From assembly GCF_029846255.1 (NCBI RefSeq), contig NZ_JARVWQ010000002.1:1-64000 (forward strand): a stretch of 64,000 nucleotides of DNA. The letters run 5' to 3'. The translations under genes and the position numbers were made by a program. Shown here in pieces: positions 5,392 through 18,374 of this stretch. The notes beneath the pieces are model-generated. The model saw only the letters and a list, made by a program, of their open reading frames with translations. It did not search any database and had not been told where the DNA came from. How positions within the stretch are numbered: position 1 is the first letter of the stretch; each line of letters starts with the position of its first letter. Source of the DNA: Amnibacterium sp. CER49 (GTDB taxonomy: Bacteria; Actinomycetota; Actinomycetes; Actinomycetales; Microbacteriaceae).

Positions 5392-6624
5392 CTACGCCGC
5401 CTTCCTCTCCTGCTTGCGGGCCTTCCGCGCGGCCTTCGGGTCGAAGTGCGGGTTCTCCCAGATCACGCTGCCGCCCTGGCCGAGGCCGATGCACATCGCC
5501 GTGAGCCCGTACCGCACCTCGGGGTGCAGGGCGAACTGCGCGGCGAGCTGCACCATGAGGCGCACGCCGGACGAGGCGAGCGGATGCCCGAACGCGATCG
5601 CGCCGCCCCACGGGTTGACGCGCGGGTCGTCGTCGTCGATGCCGAAGTGGTCGAGCAGGCTCAGCACCTGCACGGCGAACGCCTCGTTCAGCTCGAAGAG
5701 CCCGATGTCGTCGATCGTGAGCCCCGCCTTGCGGAGCGCCTTCTCGGTGCTCGGCACCGGGCCGAGCCCCATCACCTCGGGCTCGACGCCGGCGAAGGCG
5801 AAGCTGACGAGCCGCATCTTCACCGGCAGGCCGAGCTCCTTCGCGGCGGCCTCGCTCGCGATCAGGGACGCGCTCGCGCCGTCGTTGAGGCCCGCCGCGT
5901 TGCCGGCCGTGATGCGGCCGTGCGGCCGGAACGGCGTGCGGAGCGTCGCGAGCGCCTCCATCGTCGTGTCGGGGTGCATGAGCTCGTCGCGCACGGCGAG
6001 GCCCCAGCCCGTCTCGCTGCGGGTGGCGACCGGCACGAGGTCCGGCTGGATGCGGCCGGCCTCGTAGGCGGCGGCCGCCTTCTGCTGGGAGCGCATCGCG
6101 AACCGGTCGGAGCGCTCCTTCGTGAGATGGGGCATCCGGTCGTGGATCCGCTCGGCGGTCGCGCCCATGACGAGCGCGTCGGTGCCGACGAGCCGCTCGC
6201 TCACGAACCGCGGATTCGGGTCGGCGCCTGCGCCCATCGGGTGGTGCCCCATGTGCTCGACGCCGCCGGCGATCGCGACGTCGTAGGCGCCGAAGCCGAT
6301 CGCGCCGGCGACCGTCGTGACGCTCGTCATCGCGCCCGCGCACATGCGGTCGATCGCGTAGCCCGGGACCGAGCGGGGGAGACCCGCGAGCAGCGCCGCG
6401 GTCCGCCCGAGCGTGAGGCCCTGGTCGCCGGCCTGCGTGGTGGCCGCGATCGCCACGTCGTCGACGCGGTCCTTCGGGAGCCGCGGGTTGCGCTCGAGCA
6501 GCGCGACCATCGCCTTCACGACGAGGTCGTCGGCCCTCGTGCCCCAGTACATGCCCTTCTCGCCGGCCCGGCCGAACGGGGTGCGGACCCCGTCGACGAA
6601 CACGACCTCGCTGCGCTCGACCAC
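5392..6624 (-). CDS. fadA: Acetyl-CoA C-acyltransferase (thiolase)
   Basis: This thiolase of 410 residues cleaves 3-ketoacyl-CoA to acetyl-CoA and a shortened acyl-CoA. The nucleophilic Cys is at about residue 95 in IDRMCAGAM, the His is in GGAIAFGHPLASSG, and the C-terminal catalytic Cys is in MCIGLGQGGS. The GTG at 6624 is chosen because a GGAGG-type ribosome binding site precedes it and the VVFVDGVRTPFGR strand of the family begins a few residues later. An open frame continues far upstream but has no thiolase content. The gene is followed without spacing by the FadJ-like gene, an arrangement seen in beta-oxidation operons. Confidence 0.93.
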   Translation of the reverse strand: MVERSEVVFVDGVRTPFGRAGEKGMYWGTRADDLVVKAMVALLERNPRLPKDRVDDVAIAATTQAGDQGLTLGRTAALLAGLPRSVPGYAIDRMCAGAMTSVTTVAGAIGFGAYDVAIAGGVEHMGHHPMGAGADPNPRFVSERLVGTDALVMGATAERIHDRMPHLTKERSDRFAMRSQQKAAAAYEAGRIQPDLVPVATRSETGWGLAVRDELMHPDTTMEALATLRTPFRPHGRITAGNAAGLNDGASASLIASEAAAKELGLPVKMRLVSFAFAGVEPEVMGLGPVPSTEKALRKAGLTIDDIGLFELNEAFAVQVLSLLDHFGIDDDDPRVNPWGGAIAFGHPLASSGVRLMVQLAAQFALHPEVRYGLTAMCIGLGQGGSVIWENPHFDPKAARKARKQERKAA

Positions 6625-6719
6625 GCGCCTCCGTTCAGAACGACGCCGCCGGGACCCGACGGCGGAACCCGGACGATCCTGCTGGGCCGCCCTGAGGAAG
6701 TCGAATCGACCGCGGGAAC

Positions 6720-7970
6720 CTACGACGCGTCGGCGTCGGACGCCGGATCCGGTTGGCCGCCGCGCACAAACGCGTCGGCGATCACCGGTGCGGTCAGCGC
6801 GATCTGCCACTCGCGGGCCCCCTGGGCGCGGAGCACCTCGGCGATCGCGTCGGCGTCCACCTCGACGGGGGGCTCCCACGCGACCCGGCGGAGCACGTCG
6901 GGGGTGAGCAGGTTCTCCGTCGGCAGGTTCAGGTGCTCGGCGAGCTCGGCGATCGCGGGCCGGGCCGCCTTCAACCGGCGGTCGGCCTCGGGGTTGCGGT
7001 CGGCCCAGGCGCGCGGCGGCGGCAGCGTGTCGGACGGCACGCGGGCGGCGGGCAGGTCCTCCGTCGCGAGGCCGGCCTCGACGGCCGCCCACCAGCGGTC
7101 GATCTCGTTGCGGCTCGCGCGGCCGCTGAAGCTGCGCATCGCGGCGAGCTCGCGCTTGCTCGACGGCGGCGTCCGGGCGACCGCGACGAGCGAGGCGTCG
7201 GGCACGAGGCGGCCGGGCGCCGAGTCGACGTCGCGGGCGTAGGCGTCGCGGGCGAGCCACAGCTCCCGCGCCACGGCGAGGTTGCGCGCGCCGCGCACGG
7301 CGTGCACGCCCGACAGGCGGCGCCAGGGCTCGGCGGGTGCCGCCCGGACCGCGCGCGTCCGCACCGCTTCGAACTCCTGCTCGGCGATGGCGGTCTTGCC
7401 GGCCTCGTCGAGCAGGCGCGCCTCGGCGTCGCGCACGTCGACGAGCAGCTCGACGTCGAGGGCGGCGTAGACGAGCCAGGAGCGGGGCAGCGGCCTCGTC
7501 GACCAGTCGGCGGCGGAGTGCTCCTTCGCGAGGTGCAGGCCGAGCAGCTGCTCGACGACCGCGCCGAGGCCGACGCGCTCGAAGCCGAGCAGGCGGGCGG
7601 CGAGCTCGGTGTCGAAGACGCGATCCGGGTCGAGCCCCACCTCGCGGAGGCAGGGCAGGTCCTGGCTCGCCGCGTGCAGCACCCACTCCTCGCCGCGCAT
7701 CGCGTCGGCGAGCTCGGCGAAGTCGGTGACCGCGGCGAGCGCGGGCGGGTCGAGCATGATCGTGCCCGAGCCGCGGCGGAACAGCTGGATCAGGTACGCG
7801 CGCTGCGAATAGCGGAACCCCGAGGCGCGCTCGGCGTCGACGGCGATCGGCCCGTGGCCGGCGCGGATGCGCTCCACCGCGTCGAGATAGCCCTCGCGGC
7901 TCGCGACGACCTCGACCGGTTCGGCCGGCACCGCGTCGTGGACGACGGGCTCTTCGGCCGGGTCAGCCAC
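6720..7970 (-). CDS. rnd: Ribonuclease D-like 3'-5' exonuclease with HRDC domain
   Basis: DEDDy-type exoribonuclease of about 416 residues, expected to trim 3' ends of tRNA and other stable RNA. Exo I is seen as VDAERASGFRY (the D-x-E pair), Exo II around LHAASQDL, and Exo III as YAALDVELL with the Tyr and Asp of the DEDDy class. An HRDC domain occupies the middle (near RNEIDRWW), followed by a second HRDC-like C-terminal region. The GTG at 7970 gives an 8-base overlap with the upstream DUF3000 stop; a GTG at 7997 is also in frame. Actinobacterial genomes often pair this gene with DUF3000, so translational coupling is likely. Confidence 0.87.
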   Translation of the reverse strand: MADPAEEPVVHDAVPAEPVEVVASREGYLDAVERIRAGHGPIAVDAERASGFRYSQRAYLIQLFRRGSGTIMLDPPALAAVTDFAELADAMRGEEWVLHAASQDLPCLREVGLDPDRVFDTELAARLLGFERVGLGAVVEQLLGLHLAKEHSAADWSTRPLPRSWLVYAALDVELLVDVRDAEARLLDEAGKTAIAEQEFEAVRTRAVRAAPAEPWRRLSGVHAVRGARNLAVARELWLARDAYARDVDSAPGRLVPDASLVAVARTPPSSKRELAAMRSFSGRASRNEIDRWWAAVEAGLATEDLPAARVPSDTLPPPRAWADRNPEADRRLKAARPAIAELAEHLNLPTENLLTPDVLRRVAWEPPVEVDADAIAEVLRAQGAREWQIALTAPVIADAFVRGGQPDPASDADAS

Positions 7971-8553
7971 GCCCTGCTCGACGTGCGGACAACACACTCA
8001 CTCCCTCGGCCGCCGGGGGGAGACCGGCGAGCATGCACAACAACTCGCCCCACCCTTCCACATGCGCGGCCAGGTCGAGGTCGGCCGGCGTCCAGGAGGC
8101 GCGGAGCTCGATCTTCGCCCCCGTGCCCTGGTCGGCGAGGTCGCCGAAGCCGGACGAGACGATGGTGGTGGCGGTGCCGGCCGCGGCCGTGTAGCTCGCG
8201 CCCCGCGTCTCGAGCGCGTCGGTGAGCCACGACCAGGTCACCTCGGCGAGGAACGGGTCGGTGCCGATCTCGGTCTCGAGCGGTGCCTGCGCGAAGCAGA
8301 CCACCCGGAACTCGCCGTCCCACGCGGGCTGGCCCTCGGGGTCGTGCAGGAGGATGAAGCGCCCGGTGCCGAGCTCCGAGTCCTCGCCGTGGATCTTCTG
8401 CCGCACATCGCCGGCGAGCGCGATCGAGTACGGGGCGACCTCCGTCGGCGACGGGATCTCCGTCACGACCAGCTCGCTCCGGATCCGGGCTGCCTGAAGG
8501 GAGGCCCGCGCCTTCTCGAAGGGGGCCGGCGGCGTGGTGGGACCGTTCGGCAC
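7963..8553 (-). CDS. DUF3000 family protein
   Basis: This 196-residue cytoplasmic protein matches the actinobacterial DUF3000 family by its central segment WSWLTDALE and the ASYTAAAGTATT stretch followed by a conserved LRASWTP(A)D...HVEGWGELLCMLAGLPP tail. It has no signal peptide or membrane segment. It starts with GTG just downstream of a weak GAGG, and its stop overlaps the RNase D start, so the two are probably one transcript. The function of the family is not established. The pairing with RNase D hints at an RNA-related role, which is inference only. Confidence 0.8.
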   Translation of the reverse strand: MPNGPTTPPAPFEKARASLQAARIRSELVVTEIPSPTEVAPYSIALAGDVRQKIHGEDSELGTGRFILLHDPEGQPAWDGEFRVVCFAQAPLETEIGTDPFLAEVTWSWLTDALETRGASYTAAAGTATTIVSSGFGDLADQGTGAKIELRASWTPADLDLAAHVEGWGELLCMLAGLPPAAEGVSVLSARRAGRG

Positions 8554-14999: not shown

Positions 15000-15044
15000 T
15001 TCGCGTTCCCGGACCCGGGAGGAGGCCCGATGAGGGGCGGACGG

Positions 15045-15117
15045 TGGGCGATGCCAGACTCGAACTGACGACCTCTTCGGTGTGAACGAAGCGCGCTACC
15101 AACTGCGCCAATCGCCC
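15045..15117 (-). tRNA. tRNA-Val (CAC)
   Basis: The reverse strand folds into a complete cloverleaf: acceptor GGGCGAT/ATCGCCC with discriminator A, D-arm GCGC...GCGC, anticodon stem CTTCG/CGAAG with loop TTCACAC giving anticodon CAC, and a T-arm with the GTTCGAGTC loop. CCA is not encoded. It is convergent with amtB and divergent from the Gly-Cys-Val array. Confidence 0.95.
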
Positions 15118-15224
15118 GTCGGTCGACCACTATGCCACAGGGGATCGGGCCGCCACGCCGCCCCGATCGGTTCGACACCCCCGCGACGATCGGCTACAGT
15201 TCTGGATGCCCCGCGAGGGGCGAC

Positions 15225-15296
15225 GCGGATGTGGCGCAGTGGTAGCGCATCACCTTGCCAAGGTGAGGGTCGCGAGTTCGAATCTCGTCATCCGCT
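15225..15296 (+). tRNA. tRNA-Gly (GCC)
   Basis: A 72-base cloverleaf with acceptor GCGGATG/CATCCGC and discriminator T. The anticodon stem TCACC/GGTGA has loop TTGCCAA, so the anticodon is GCC; the T-loop is GTTCGAATC. It is the first of three plus-strand tRNAs sharing the terminator at 15518-15544. Confidence 0.96.
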
Positions 15297-15344
15297 CGGT
15301 GGGACCAGGCCCGACCTGGCGTGTCACTTGGGTCACCACAACCT

Positions 15345-15415
15345 GGTGGGGTGGCCGAGAGGCGAGGCAACGGCCTGCAAAGCCGTGTACGCGGGTTCGA
15401 ATCCCGTCCCCACCT
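15345..15415 (+). tRNA. tRNA-Cys (GCA)
   Basis: A 71-base cloverleaf with acceptor GGTGGGG/CCCCACC and discriminator T (expected for tRNA-Cys). Anticodon stem ACGGC/GCCGT, loop CTGCAAA, anticodon GCA. T-loop GTTCGAATC. It is the middle gene of the Gly-Cys-Val array. Confidence 0.96.
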
Positions 15416-15439
15416 CCACCGCCCGGCGACGGGCGGAGC

Positions 15440-15511
15440 GGGCGATTGGCGCAGCGGTAGCGCGCTTCCCTGACACGGAAGAGGTCACTGGTTCGAACCC
15501 AGTATCGCCCA
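15440..15511 (+). tRNA. tRNA-Val (GAC)
   Basis: A 72-base cloverleaf with acceptor GGGCGAT/ATCGCCC and discriminator A. Anticodon stem CTTCC/GGAAG with loop CTGACAC gives anticodon GAC. Its acceptor and D-arm are almost identical to the reverse-strand tRNA-Val(CAC) 400 bases away, suggesting a local duplication with divergence of the anticodon arm. Confidence 0.96.
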
Positions 15512-15517
15512 CAGACA

Positions 15518-15676: not shown

Positions 15677-15695
15677 GTACGTGTTTTCCCGGATG
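15677..15695 (+). promoter_or_regulatory. Copy A of a shared 19-bp upstream motif
   Basis: GTACGTGTTTTCCCGGATG, 34 bases before the secreted protein gene at 15730. It matches copy C (18356-18374, opposite strand) at 15 of 19 positions. The dyad core is TACG-N8-CGKA; here the right arm reads CGGA. See copies B and C. Confidence 0.5.
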
Positions 15696-15729
15696 CGACG
15701 TCGCCGCTGGGTGCGCTAGCCCGAACGGC

Positions 15730-16296
15730 ATGCGACTCCTCCGCCGTTCCCACCTCGTCCTCGCCGCCACTGCCGCGGCCGCCACCGTCGCCGCCGTCGT
15801 GGTCGGCGGCGTCCCCTCGGCGTCCGCCGCGACCGCCTACAGCGTCACCTACGCCGGTACCGATGCTCACACGCTCGACCCGAACATGCAGCCGAAGTAC
15901 ACCGGCGGTGGCGGCGTGGGCGCCGTGGTCACCAGCTCGGGGCCCGCCCTGATCCACGCGGTGGAGTTCAGCGTGAACCTTCCGGTCGGAGCCAGAGTCA
16001 CGTCCGTCGCCGTGAGCTACTCCACCTGCAACACGACGTCGCAGCCGGTCATCAGCTTCGGGGTGGACACCCCGGCGAGCGCGAGCAGTGCTCAGATCGC
16101 CGCGATCTCAGCCGGGACGCACTGCGGGGTGACGACGGTCTCGAAGGCGGGCTCGCCGCTGACCACGGTCCTGACCGGCCGGAGGTATGTCGTGGACTTC
16201 ACCTTCACCGACGAGGCCGGCTACAGCGGCCCCTTCAACCAGGTGCTGTACGGGACGACGGTGAAGTACACGTGCGACGCGCCCTGCGTGGCCTGA
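15730..16296 (+). CDS. Secreted four-cysteine protein of unknown function
   Basis: A 188-residue precursor with a clear Sec signal peptide: basic MRLLRRSH, a long Ala/Val hydrophobic core, and a likely cleavage after PSASA near residue 34. The mature domain is beta-rich, Ser/Thr/Gly-rich and contains four Cys (in STCN, THCG, YTCD and APC), enough for two disulphides. I do not recognise a family. It stands alone on the plus strand behind the tRNA array, ends before a 185-base gap with a hairpin, and faces the convergent secreted gene at 16482. The 19-bp motif 34 bases upstream is shared with two other secreted genes nearby. Expression and export are inferred; the function is unknown. Confidence 0.8.
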   Translation: MRLLRRSHLVLAATAAAATVAAVVVGGVPSASAATAYSVTYAGTDAHTLDPNMQPKYTGGGGVGAVVTSSGPALIHAVEFSVNLPVGARVTSVAVSYSTCNTTSQPVISFGVDTPASASSAQIAAISAGTHCGVTTVSKAGSPLTTVLTGRRYVVDFTFTDEAGYSGPFNQVLYGTTVKYTCDAPCVA

Positions 16297-16481
16297 AGTC
16301 GCCCACCTCGAGCCGCCCCAGGACCCCGGTGGTTCCGCTCCACCGCGGGGCATCGGGCCGGGGCGGGCGTCGCCGTGCTCGGCGGTGACCCGGCCGGCGC
16401 AGTCACCGCGTCCGACATCATCGTCACGGCGGGCTTGAGATCGCCGGGCGATGACCTGACGGCGACCGGCCCTGCTGGATC

Positions 16482-16790
16482 TCAGAGCCCGTAGTCGTTC
16501 CTCAGGGTGCTGACGCACGTGCCGTAGTTGGGGAAGTACGGACCGCCGAGCACCTTGCAGAGGATCGAAGCCAAGCCGGCGGAGCTGCCGTTGCTCTGGA
16601 TGTACCCCACGCAGTTCCCATAGATGTTCACCCCCGAGAAGTTCGCCTGGATCTGCCGACACACCTGCACGCCTGCGTTCCCTCCGCCGGCGGCGAAGGC
16701 AGGGGCAGCGAGCAGCGGGGTGACGACGGTCGCGCCGGTGAGCGCGGTGACGAGAGCGACGGCGCGAATGCGCCTCCTGAGCGGTGACAT
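16482..16790 (-). CDS. Small secreted four-cysteine protein of unknown function
   Basis: A 102-residue precursor starting with MSPLRRRIR, a hydrophobic core and cleavage predicted after APAFA near residue 34, leaving a mature peptide of about 68 residues. It holds four Cys (VQVC, YGNC, ILC, YGTC) that are evenly spread and could form two disulphides. The inner ATG at 16790 is chosen because it begins the signal peptide; the frame stays open further upstream but without a credible start. A GGAAGGG lies about 12 bases before it, rather far. The fold is not recognised. A short, disulphide-rich, exported protein could be a surface, inhibitor or bacteriocin-like factor; nothing in the sequence decides. 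Confidence 0.72.
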   Translation of the reverse strand: MSPLRRRIRAVALVTALTGATVVTPLLAAPAFAAGGGNAGVQVCRQIQANFSGVNIYGNCVGYIQSNGSSAGLASILCKVLGGPYFPNYGTCVSTLRNDYGL

Positions 16791-17142
16791 GAGGGAACTG
16801 CACCCTTCCTCTTCGAATGGACGGTGCCGGACGTCCGTGGGTACGAGAGGTCCGGGCTGCGCGAAACGTATGGCAGCCGGTCCAGCGCCGGACATACGGA
16901 GAACTACGTATCCCGACAGCCGGAGATCGTGAGCGACTCCGGCGGAGCAGTCCGCTGACTGATGGGCCCTGCGCACGCTGAAGGGGCGCCGGCCGTCACG
17001 CCCCGGGCGGCGGTGCTGCGTTCTCGGTGAGGAGCGCGGTTCTCGTTCAAGTCCCGCTCAGTGGCTTCCTTCGGCTTCCTCCGCGCCCTACGGTTCACGG
17101 GAGCAGCGATGCGCTGCATCCGTGCCGAACGAGGAGCAGACC
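16791..17142. other. 352-base divergent intergenic region
   Basis: No credible gene is seen between the minus-strand secreted gene and the plus-strand lamin-tail gene. The region holds motif copy B (16893-16911). It also holds an imperfect palindrome whose outer arms are CGTATG (16867-16872) and CATACG (16893-16898) with CCGG repeated inside. Its right part (16980-17120) is GC-rich without clear promoter boxes. Both flanking promoters should lie here. Confidence 0.6.
16893..16911 (-). promoter_or_regulatory. Copy B of a shared 19-bp upstream motif
   Basis: Read on the minus strand it is ATACGTAGTTCTCCGTATG, about 102 bases upstream of the secreted gene starting at 16790. It matches copy C at 15 of 19 positions and carries the full dyad TACG-N8-CGTA. 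Confidence 0.55.
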
Positions 17143-17604
17143 GTGCCCCGATGGACGCTCGTCCCCGTGTCCCTGCTCGCCGCGCTCGCCCTCGGCCTCG
17201 CCGGCTCGCTCCCGGCGAACGCGTCGAGCTCGCCGCTGCACCTCAGCTGGGCGCACCCGAACTCGGCGGGCTCCGACACCCGCACGAACACGAGCCTGAA
17301 CGACGAGTGGGTGAAGATCGGCAACTACAGCTACACGACCAGCTACAACCTGTCCGGCTACACCCTCAAGGACGCGTCCGGGCACACATACCGCTTTCCC
17401 ACGAGCTTCCGCCTCGCCCCGCGCAAGTCGGTCGAGGTGCACACCGGCTCAGGCACGAACACGAGCGCGAACCTCTACTGGGGCTCCGGCGCGTACATCT
17501 GGAACAACACCGGCGACACCGCCTACCTGCGCACCGCCTCCGGCTACCTCAACAGCACGTGCCGCTGGGGCAGCGTGGCCGACAGCGTCACCGTGCCCTG
17601 CTGA
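17143..17604 (+). CDS. Secreted lamin-tail domain (LTD) protein
   Basis: A 153-residue precursor with a Sec signal peptide (PRWTLVPVSLLAALALGLAG, cleavage near PANA|SS about residue 26). The mature part is essentially one lamin-tail domain: EWVKIGN, then YNLSGYTLKDASGHTYRFP, FRLAPRKSVEVHTG, and a terminal Trp/Asn-rich strand with one Cys pair (STCRW, VPC). LTDs are immunoglobulin-like folds found on many secreted bacterial proteins, often as adhesion or nuclease-associated modules; alone, the role is unknown. GTG 17143 is preferred over GTG 17122 because AGGAG at 17132-17136 is spaced six bases from it. The stop overlaps the next ATG by one base. Confidence 0.85.
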   Translation: MPRWTLVPVSLLAALALGLAGSLPANASSSPLHLSWAHPNSAGSDTRTNTSLNDEWVKIGNYSYTTSYNLSGYTLKDASGHTYRFPTSFRLAPRKSVEVHTGSGTNTSANLYWGSGAYIWNNTGDTAYLRTASGYLNSTCRWGSVADSVTVPC

Positions 17605-17774
17605 TGGGCTTCGTCTTCCGCCGCAGCGTCTCGTTGGGCCGCGGCACCAGGCTCAACCTCTCCAAGCGGGGGGCATCGCTGTCCCAGCGCATCGGACGGC
17701 TCACGCTCAGCTCACGCGGCGGCGGCTCCATCCGCATCGCTCGCGGGCTGTCCTTCCGCTTCGGCAGGCGCTGA
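17604..17774 (+). CDS. DUF4236 family small protein
   Basis: A 56-residue basic protein that begins MGFVFRRSVSLGRGTRLNLS, matching the DUF4236 signature (MGFRFRKSxxLGPGxRLNLSKxGxS). The rest is Arg/Ser/Gly-rich and ends LSFRFGRR. Members are short, widespread and uncharacterised; many are fused to membrane helices, but none is present here. The ATG shares its A with the stop of the lamin-tail gene (TGATG), so it depends on translation of that gene. It is convergent with the secreted gene ending at 17830. Confidence 0.78.
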   Translation: MGFVFRRSVSLGRGTRLNLSKRGASLSQRIGRLTLSSRGGGSIRIARGLSFRFGRR

Positions 17775-17829
17775 ACTCGCGTCCGAAGGATGGGGGTCGG
17801 CGGCCCGGACGCAGACCAGGGTCGCGCCC

Positions 17830-18276
17830 CTACTCGCAGTCGCCGGAAGGTCGCTCGAACTGGATGCGCCCGTGGGCGAAGTGGTAGTGCAGGGAAGCGG
17901 TGCAGCTGACGCCGTCCTGCGTGTAGGTGTCGGAGAAGGCGTAATGCTGCTCCTGCAGGTAGTCCGTCGCTGACTTGTAGAGCACATGCGAGTGGCCCGA
18001 CGTCCTGTCGGTCTCGATCGCCGTGCCGTCGAGGTAGAAGGTGAGCACGCCCTTGTAGTTGTCGGTGAAGATGTGGTTCCCCGAGGGTGTGGACACCTGG
18101 TTGAAGGTCTCGTGGCCGTGGAAGCACGCGGAGAACGGTCCGCCGAGCGAGAAGCAGTGGTCGCCGGTGCTCGCGGCACCGCCGCTGCTGCTGGCGAGAA
18201 CAGGACCGGCGGCCGTGAGAGCGAGCGCAGTTCCGACGACGAGTCCTCCGGCGAAGCGCGCGAGAACCTTGACCAT
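17830..18276 (-). CDS. Secreted four-cysteine protein of unknown function
   Basis: A 148-residue precursor. ATG 18276 follows a GAGAGGTGG ribosome binding site at about seven bases, whereas the longer in-frame start at 18309 lacks one. The signal peptide is MVKVLARFAGGLVVGTALAL..., with cleavage near VLA|SSS. The mature protein has four Cys (GDHC, SAC, VSC, GDC) and many His/Tyr residues, including HETFNQVSTPSGNHIFTDN and ASLHYHFAHG, giving a lipocalin- or beta-barrel-like look. No family is recognised. Codon use here is visibly less GC-biased than in the housekeeping genes, hinting at accessory origin. It carries motif copy C upstream. Confidence 0.78.
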   Translation of the reverse strand: MVKVLARFAGGLVVGTALALTAAGPVLASSSGGAASTGDHCFSLGGPFSACFHGHETFNQVSTPSGNHIFTDNYKGVLTFYLDGTAIETDRTSGHSHVLYKSATDYLQEQHYAFSDTYTQDGVSCTASLHYHFAHGRIQFERPSGDCE

Positions 18277-18327
18277 GTGATGCCACCTCTCTGTGGGATC
18301 GACGGGCACGGAGATGTGCCGGGGCGC

Positions 18328-18347
18328 ACGTTAGTTCGAGTTAACGT
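18328..18347. promoter_or_regulatory. Imperfect palindrome ACGTTA-N8-TAACGT upstream of secreted gene
   Basis: Six-base perfect arms ACGTTA (18328-18333) and TAACGT (18342-18347) flank a core containing TCGA. It lies 51-71 bases upstream of the start at 18276 and just downstream of motif copy C, in promoter position. It is a candidate operator and unusually AT-rich for the window. Confidence 0.45.
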
Positions 18348-18355
18348 CCGCGCTC

Positions 18356-18374
18356 CATACGGCGAAACACGTAG
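18356..18374 (-). promoter_or_regulatory. Copy C of a shared 19-bp upstream motif
   Basis: On the minus strand it reads CTACGTGTTTCGCCGTATG, 79 bases upstream of the secreted gene starting at 18276. It has the full dyad TACG-N8-CGTA and resembles copies A and B at 15 of 19 positions each. Confidence 0.55.

Follow-up and report, generated by a model that had tools for sequence, protein, structure and literature searches.

A conserved operator-like motif in promoters of mostly secreted-protein genes of Amnibacterium sp. CER49 and a candidate LuxR-type regulator

Three secreted-protein genes beside a tRNA cluster

The window analysed, a stretch of 64,000 nucleotides (C2:1-64000) of the 3.36-Mb genome of Amnibacterium sp. 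CER49 (two contigs, C1 and C2; GC content 73%), contains a patch of secreted-protein genes beside a cluster of tRNA genes (Val, Gly, Cys, Val; 15043-15512). Directly downstream of the tRNA cluster lies gene A (15730-16296, plus strand, 188 aa). The patch further comprises gene B (16482-16790, minus strand, start at 16790, 102 aa), gene C (17830-18276, minus strand, start at 18276, 148 aa) and a gene for a secreted protein with a lamin-tail domain (17143-17604), immediately past which a short frame (17604-17774) matched DUF4236 (E 4.4e-8). Signal-peptide-like N-termini and four Cys residues in the mature part were confirmed for each of A, B and C. None of the three yielded a clear protein-family match or was found in plasmids, and A and C had no match among PDB sequences. 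Gene A was without a match in six congeners, while a paralogue, 80% identical, occurs in its own genome with a motif site of its own (C2:911577). No close relatives of gene C were confirmed among the genome contigs scanned.

Reading of the sequence and its open reading frames located one motif copy upstream of each of A, B and C, in the orientation of the gene, at the places and on the strands given in a preliminary description. Its counts of agreement between copies (15 of 19 positions) and its motif-to-start distances (34, 102, and 79 bases) were reproduced by eye. The operator unit was taken as the 18-mer beginning at the T of TACG, and all three copies were recovered by pattern searches and by a weight matrix. 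Operator copy A, TACGTGTTTTCCCGGATG, occupies 15678-15695 (plus strand) and is followed by a -10-like hexamer TAGCCC (15717-15722), 39 bases from the operator start and 7 before the ATG. Copy B, TACGTAGTTCTCCGTATG (16893-16910, minus strand), and copy C, TACGTGTTTCGCCGTATG (18356-18373, minus strand), are each followed at offset 40 by a -10-like hexamer, TACGTT (16865-16870, minus strand) and TAACGT (18328-18333, minus strand), respectively.

Nine sites in the genome

The bare dyad was rejected as too weak a search tool. TACG-N8-CGTATG with up to two mismatches was seen 19 times in the window against 24 expected, i.e. without enrichment, and genome counts with up to three mismatches (80 vs 64 and 27 vs 12 in the control) were only partly above control. 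Pattern TACGNNNTTNNCCGNATG occurred at four exact places in the 3.36-Mb genome (A, B, C, and C2:911577), against none for the reversed-pattern control, and a looser pattern led to C1:440827, C2:925977, C1:1932211, C2:312 kb, and C2:261173. Pattern TRCGTNNTTYNNNNNATS, derived from sites already found, gave nine places against none in the control. Eight of these are sites of the set (C2:312 kb in its reverse-strand reading); C2:261173, which came from the looser pattern, falls outside it. The ninth place, C1:88615, was dropped, lying within open frames with no -10 at offset 38-40. Another position, C2:909274 (TTCGTGTTTTCTGGAATG, 14.9 bits), was set aside because it shares sequence with the start of an oppositely oriented membrane-protein gene. 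The whole-genome scan proposed in the preliminary description placed the motif at nine positions, every one upstream of a gene. Among 150 family genomes, exact TACGTNNTTCNNCGTATG was present in the own one alone, so that the site in this form is not family-wide.

Seven of the nine targets are secreted: A, its paralogue, B, C, a 276-aa protein (C1:440827), a fibronectin-III protein (C2:925977), and a ScyD/ScyE-family protein (C1:1932211; NF033206, E 9.6e-53). A PNPOx-like flavoprotein and a FAD-dependent oxygenase (site at C2:312 kb) make up the remainder. A cupredoxin gene was discarded as target of the C2:312-kb site, since the minus-strand reading, with a -10 at offset 40, points to the oxygenase, whose orthologues also carry the site. 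The proposal of a secreted-protein regulon therefore held for the seven targets with signal-peptide-like N-termini and not for the PNPOx-like and FAD-dependent proteins, which have none. Enrichment of signal peptides (7/9 targets vs 11/44 window genes; binomial 0.001-0.004) is a crude figure from a rule that over-calls. Four Cys residues did not prove to be a shared feature: they occur in A, its paralogue, B and C, and the other three secreted targets have one to three.

A leave-one-group-out weight matrix recovered all 16 sites used (see below); the score of the left-out site was matched at 3-12 of 206,742 positions, which is not a whole-genome false-positive rate, as the test DNA was 103.5 kb of the own genome including stretches chosen around sites. 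When all sites contributed to the matrix, the top 12 positions comprised the nine own sites (18.0-30.1 bits), two of these again as read on the reverse strand, and a candidate at C1:228 kb (20.0 bits). Lower ranks were taken by further reverse-strand readings (14.4-15.3 bits), the set-aside C2:909-kb position, one position at 12.2 bits, and the best other position in the window (11.4 bits). A palindrome of similar shape, TCCGTGGAACCACGGA (L146:2914-2931, own C2:261.9 kb; 12.2 bits), lies about 740 bases past the PNPOx site. A covariance model (R1; 15 training rows) applied to seven genomes retrieved all nine own sites (E ≤ 0.043), with the next position at E 0.108; these values are optimistic because the training rows included eight of the nine sites and the remaining one has the same sequence as A. 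As 150 of 5,873-8,479 first-look candidates were scored per genome, weak sites may be missed. About nine genes of this bacterium carry the motif at a constant place in their promoters, as a genuine and conserved switch site.

Position of the motif in its promoters

Promoter geometry was analysed in 16 promoters, comprising eight own promoters (the A duplicate left out) and eight from congeners. At offset 39 or 40, counted from where the motif begins, 14 of them have a hexamer NANNNT, against a median of 0 over all offset pairs. For the own promoters alone the count was 7/8 (P ~1e-9 from base composition, uncorrected for the pick of this offset out of about 60). The exceptions were G002, with its hexamer at 38, and gene A, with TAGCCC at 39. 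The dyad centre lies 31.5-32.5 bases upstream of the -10. The preliminary description had taken the unequal distances to the start codons as an argument for a regulator site. That argument fails, since the distance from motif to -10 is fixed and the variation up to the start codon reflects 5' UTRs of unequal length. In gene A and in a frame on contig C29 of congener G005, the ATG follows 7 and 6 bases past the -10, so that both look leaderless; gene A probably is. The regulator-site claim itself, with a 16-bp dyad of NarL/LuxR size serving a regulon, was upheld by the matrix and genome searches. Of the proposed dyad TACG-N8-CGTA, the right arm CGTA is weak or not kept in congeners.

All eight own promoters lack a good -35 element (TTGACA matched at no more than 3 of its 6 positions, spacers of 16-19), and in all eight the operator overlaps or abuts this poor -35 region, as in class II activation. 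A dyad in such a position could also allow the same LuxR-type regulator (described below) to block polymerase as a repressor; since promoters without a good -35 are what activator dependence would produce, this reading is considered unlikely. The arrangement resembles that of NarL 7-2-7 operators in a derivative of the E. coli ogt1052 promoter, for which PMC9314961 describes a single site at -44.5, 32 bp upstream of the -10, as sufficient for induction: in both cases a single 16-bp dyad is centred about 32 bases upstream of the -10. A fixed distance to the -10 would also fit a conserved block that is recognised by an alternative sigma factor and is not an operator. A sigma -35 element, however, is neither as long nor as distant as this block, which starts 39-40 and ends 21-22 bases ahead of the -10. 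The block is also dyadic, with a reversed centre at the own FAD site (TACGCAGAACCACGTATG), and a sigma element is very improbable.

Pattern searches in congeners gave 25 matches, of which four are the LuxR-ScyE sites described below and 10 others were read in context. NANNNT occurred at offset 38-40 in 10 of the 25 (four ScyE sites, two FAD sites, L106, L104, L100, and L093). The site also stands before the FAD-oxygenase orthologues of two congeners (L097, L098), where the -10 is at offset 39, and the L106 target is SGNH-lipoprotein-like. An untrained match in G005 (C126:5329-5378; E 0.028), with TAGCCT at offset 39, precedes a lipoprotein frame of SGNH-hydrolase-like type, which the draft assembly shows broken. 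Also in G005, TACGTGAATCCCGGCATG (L104; C121:37512-37529; model E 0.34), with TACCGT at offset 39, lies some 150 bases upstream of a frame that has good start signals and GGAGGAGG as its ribosome site, and is likely to mark another regulon member. In the same genome, an operator with TAGCCT at offset 39 (C29:42024-42072) stands before the leaderless-looking frame mentioned above, of 87 aa. Weaker cases were L100 in G002 (CACGAT at offset 39) and L093 in G004 (GATCCT at offset 38), the latter reading as coding sequence by eye. In G001 the ScyE site alone was found, and in G002 the ScyE site and the one weak candidate; congener regulons may be larger than listed here. Chance likeness among AT-rich promoter patches of a 73% GC genome would agree with the unenriched mismatched dyad in the window, but it is contradicted by the leave-one-out test and opposed by the pattern counts against controls, the fixed -10 offset and the conservation in congeners, leaving it a negligible probability.

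A candidate regulator next to the ScyE gene

The search proposed in the preliminary description, for a regulator gene accompanied by the motif, led to a LuxR-type gene at C1:1931473-1932120 (minus strand, 216 aa), which adjoins and diverges from the ScyD/ScyE-family target, with the site in the gap between the two. The encoded protein has a GerE/LuxR-type HTH (PF00196, E 3.4e-17, residues 152-204). No Response_reg match was obtained in Pfam at E ≤ 0.5, so that the protein does not qualify as a receiver-bearing NarL/FixJ regulator, and its N-terminal domain matched no Pfam family. In its predicted structure the N-terminus may resemble SdiA, RhlR, and CviR, with confidence below 50 at residues 53-87 and 15-23% identity.

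Regulator, ScyE and site co-occur in five of seven genomes (own, G001, G002, G005, and G006), and the HTH with its recognition helix is almost invariant in these five regulators. In the other two, G003 and G004, both 93% complete drafts, no regulator, no ScyE and no convincing site were found. The best consensus match of each 3.4-3.6-kb regulator locus in the four congeners falls in the LuxR-ScyE gap (site vs runner-up: G005 15.5 vs 14.0, G006 17.0 vs 13.0, G001 15.5 vs 14.0, G002 14.5 vs 14.0). Among the 18-column windows of this gap, the one at the site is also conserved best, with 11 identical columns against 10 for the runner-up, and a second island, GTACTC, is nearly equal in conservation. 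Facing the LuxR gene, a conserved TACGGT/TACATT (L009:1452-1457, minus strand) is perhaps its own -10. By eye, the ScyE operator would stand at about -63 relative to this putative -10 in three of the five genomes.

With a probability of roughly 0.7, we read the motif as a class II operator of the adjacent LuxR-type regulator, which would activate a small, mostly secreted regulon. This reading builds on what was observed: the sites occupy a fixed place in their promoters, they are conserved, and across seven genomes they are present or absent together with the regulator gene. A regulator dimer would bind the dyad TACGnG..CnCGTA, centred at about -43.5/-44.5, make up for the missing -35 contact and recruit RNA polymerase to the TANNNT-like -10, while the N-terminal domain, GAF-like or autoinducer-receptor-like, may sense a small ligand. 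Several observations weigh against it: seven genomes, two of them drafts, carry the co-occurrence argument; congeners do not preserve the right arm; the GTACTC island is nearly as conserved as the site; and G001 and G002 offer little beyond the ScyE site.

The own genome has 14 LuxR-HTH matches, and another NarL/LuxR member could bind what would still be a real operator. One such protein is a DevR-like response regulator, encoded at C1:223-228 kb in one operon with a DevS-like GAF kinase. The regulator's own promoter has a related palindrome, TGCGGGAAAACCCGCATG, for which TACACT lies at offset 38; this palindrome is the best own-genome position outside the nine sites (E 0.108; 20.0 bits). Clear DevS orthologues, however, occur in the own genome, G001, G003, and G005 and not in G002, G004, and G006 (which has a 35% identical relative), a spread that does not follow that of the sites, and a palindrome scan upstream of the orthologues L159, L160, and L161 found none; a further locus, L165, begins within the gene and was left out of this count. 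Binding by such a regulator is therefore regarded as unlikely. The palindrome at C1:228239-228256 (L143:1740-1757), TGCGGGTTTTCCCGCA with TACACT at 38 in the minus reading, is perhaps the operator of the DevR-like regulator itself.

The adjacent LuxR-type regulator, our preferred candidate, and its presumed operator were compared with related systems. With the DevR/DosR regulon the system shares a NarL-type HTH and the presence of a DevS/DevR-like operon; in contrast, the distribution of DevS does not track the sites, and the DosR box differs from the motif found here. The NarL heptamer is TACYYMT, unlike the TACG..CGTA of this motif, and NarL differs further in that the candidate regulator shows no receiver domain. 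From LuxR solos and AHL receptors (SdiA, QscR, RhlR, CviR) the regulator is set apart by an N-terminal domain without family match, at 15-23% identity, and by its high-GC (73%) host; to our knowledge, little is known of operators of this kind that serve LuxR solos in actinobacteria with high GC content. Among the literature matches listed, nothing relevant to the motif or the regulon was found. PMC3466318 gives LuxR counts, and a search of its text for 'binding site' found none. As far as the literature was searched, the operator is undescribed, and it is a LuxR/NarL-type class II site, a known kind.

The regulon seems to consist of a conserved core (ScyE in five of seven genomes, the oxygenase site in three) and secreted members of the own genome. 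Tentatively, and as a possibility we hold less probable than its opposite, a ligand-sensing LuxR solo may keep the ScyE core and recruit fast-changing, lineage-specific small Cys-rich secreted proteins as a secretome switch responding to cell density or habitat, with the dyad standing in for the -35 in the recruited promoters. A hint in raw sequence has led to an operator with precise promoter geometry, a list of nine target genes and a candidate regulator, for which the two congeners without regulator, ScyE, and convincing site serve as natural controls. This also places within one regulatory context three secreted proteins that have no clear family match.
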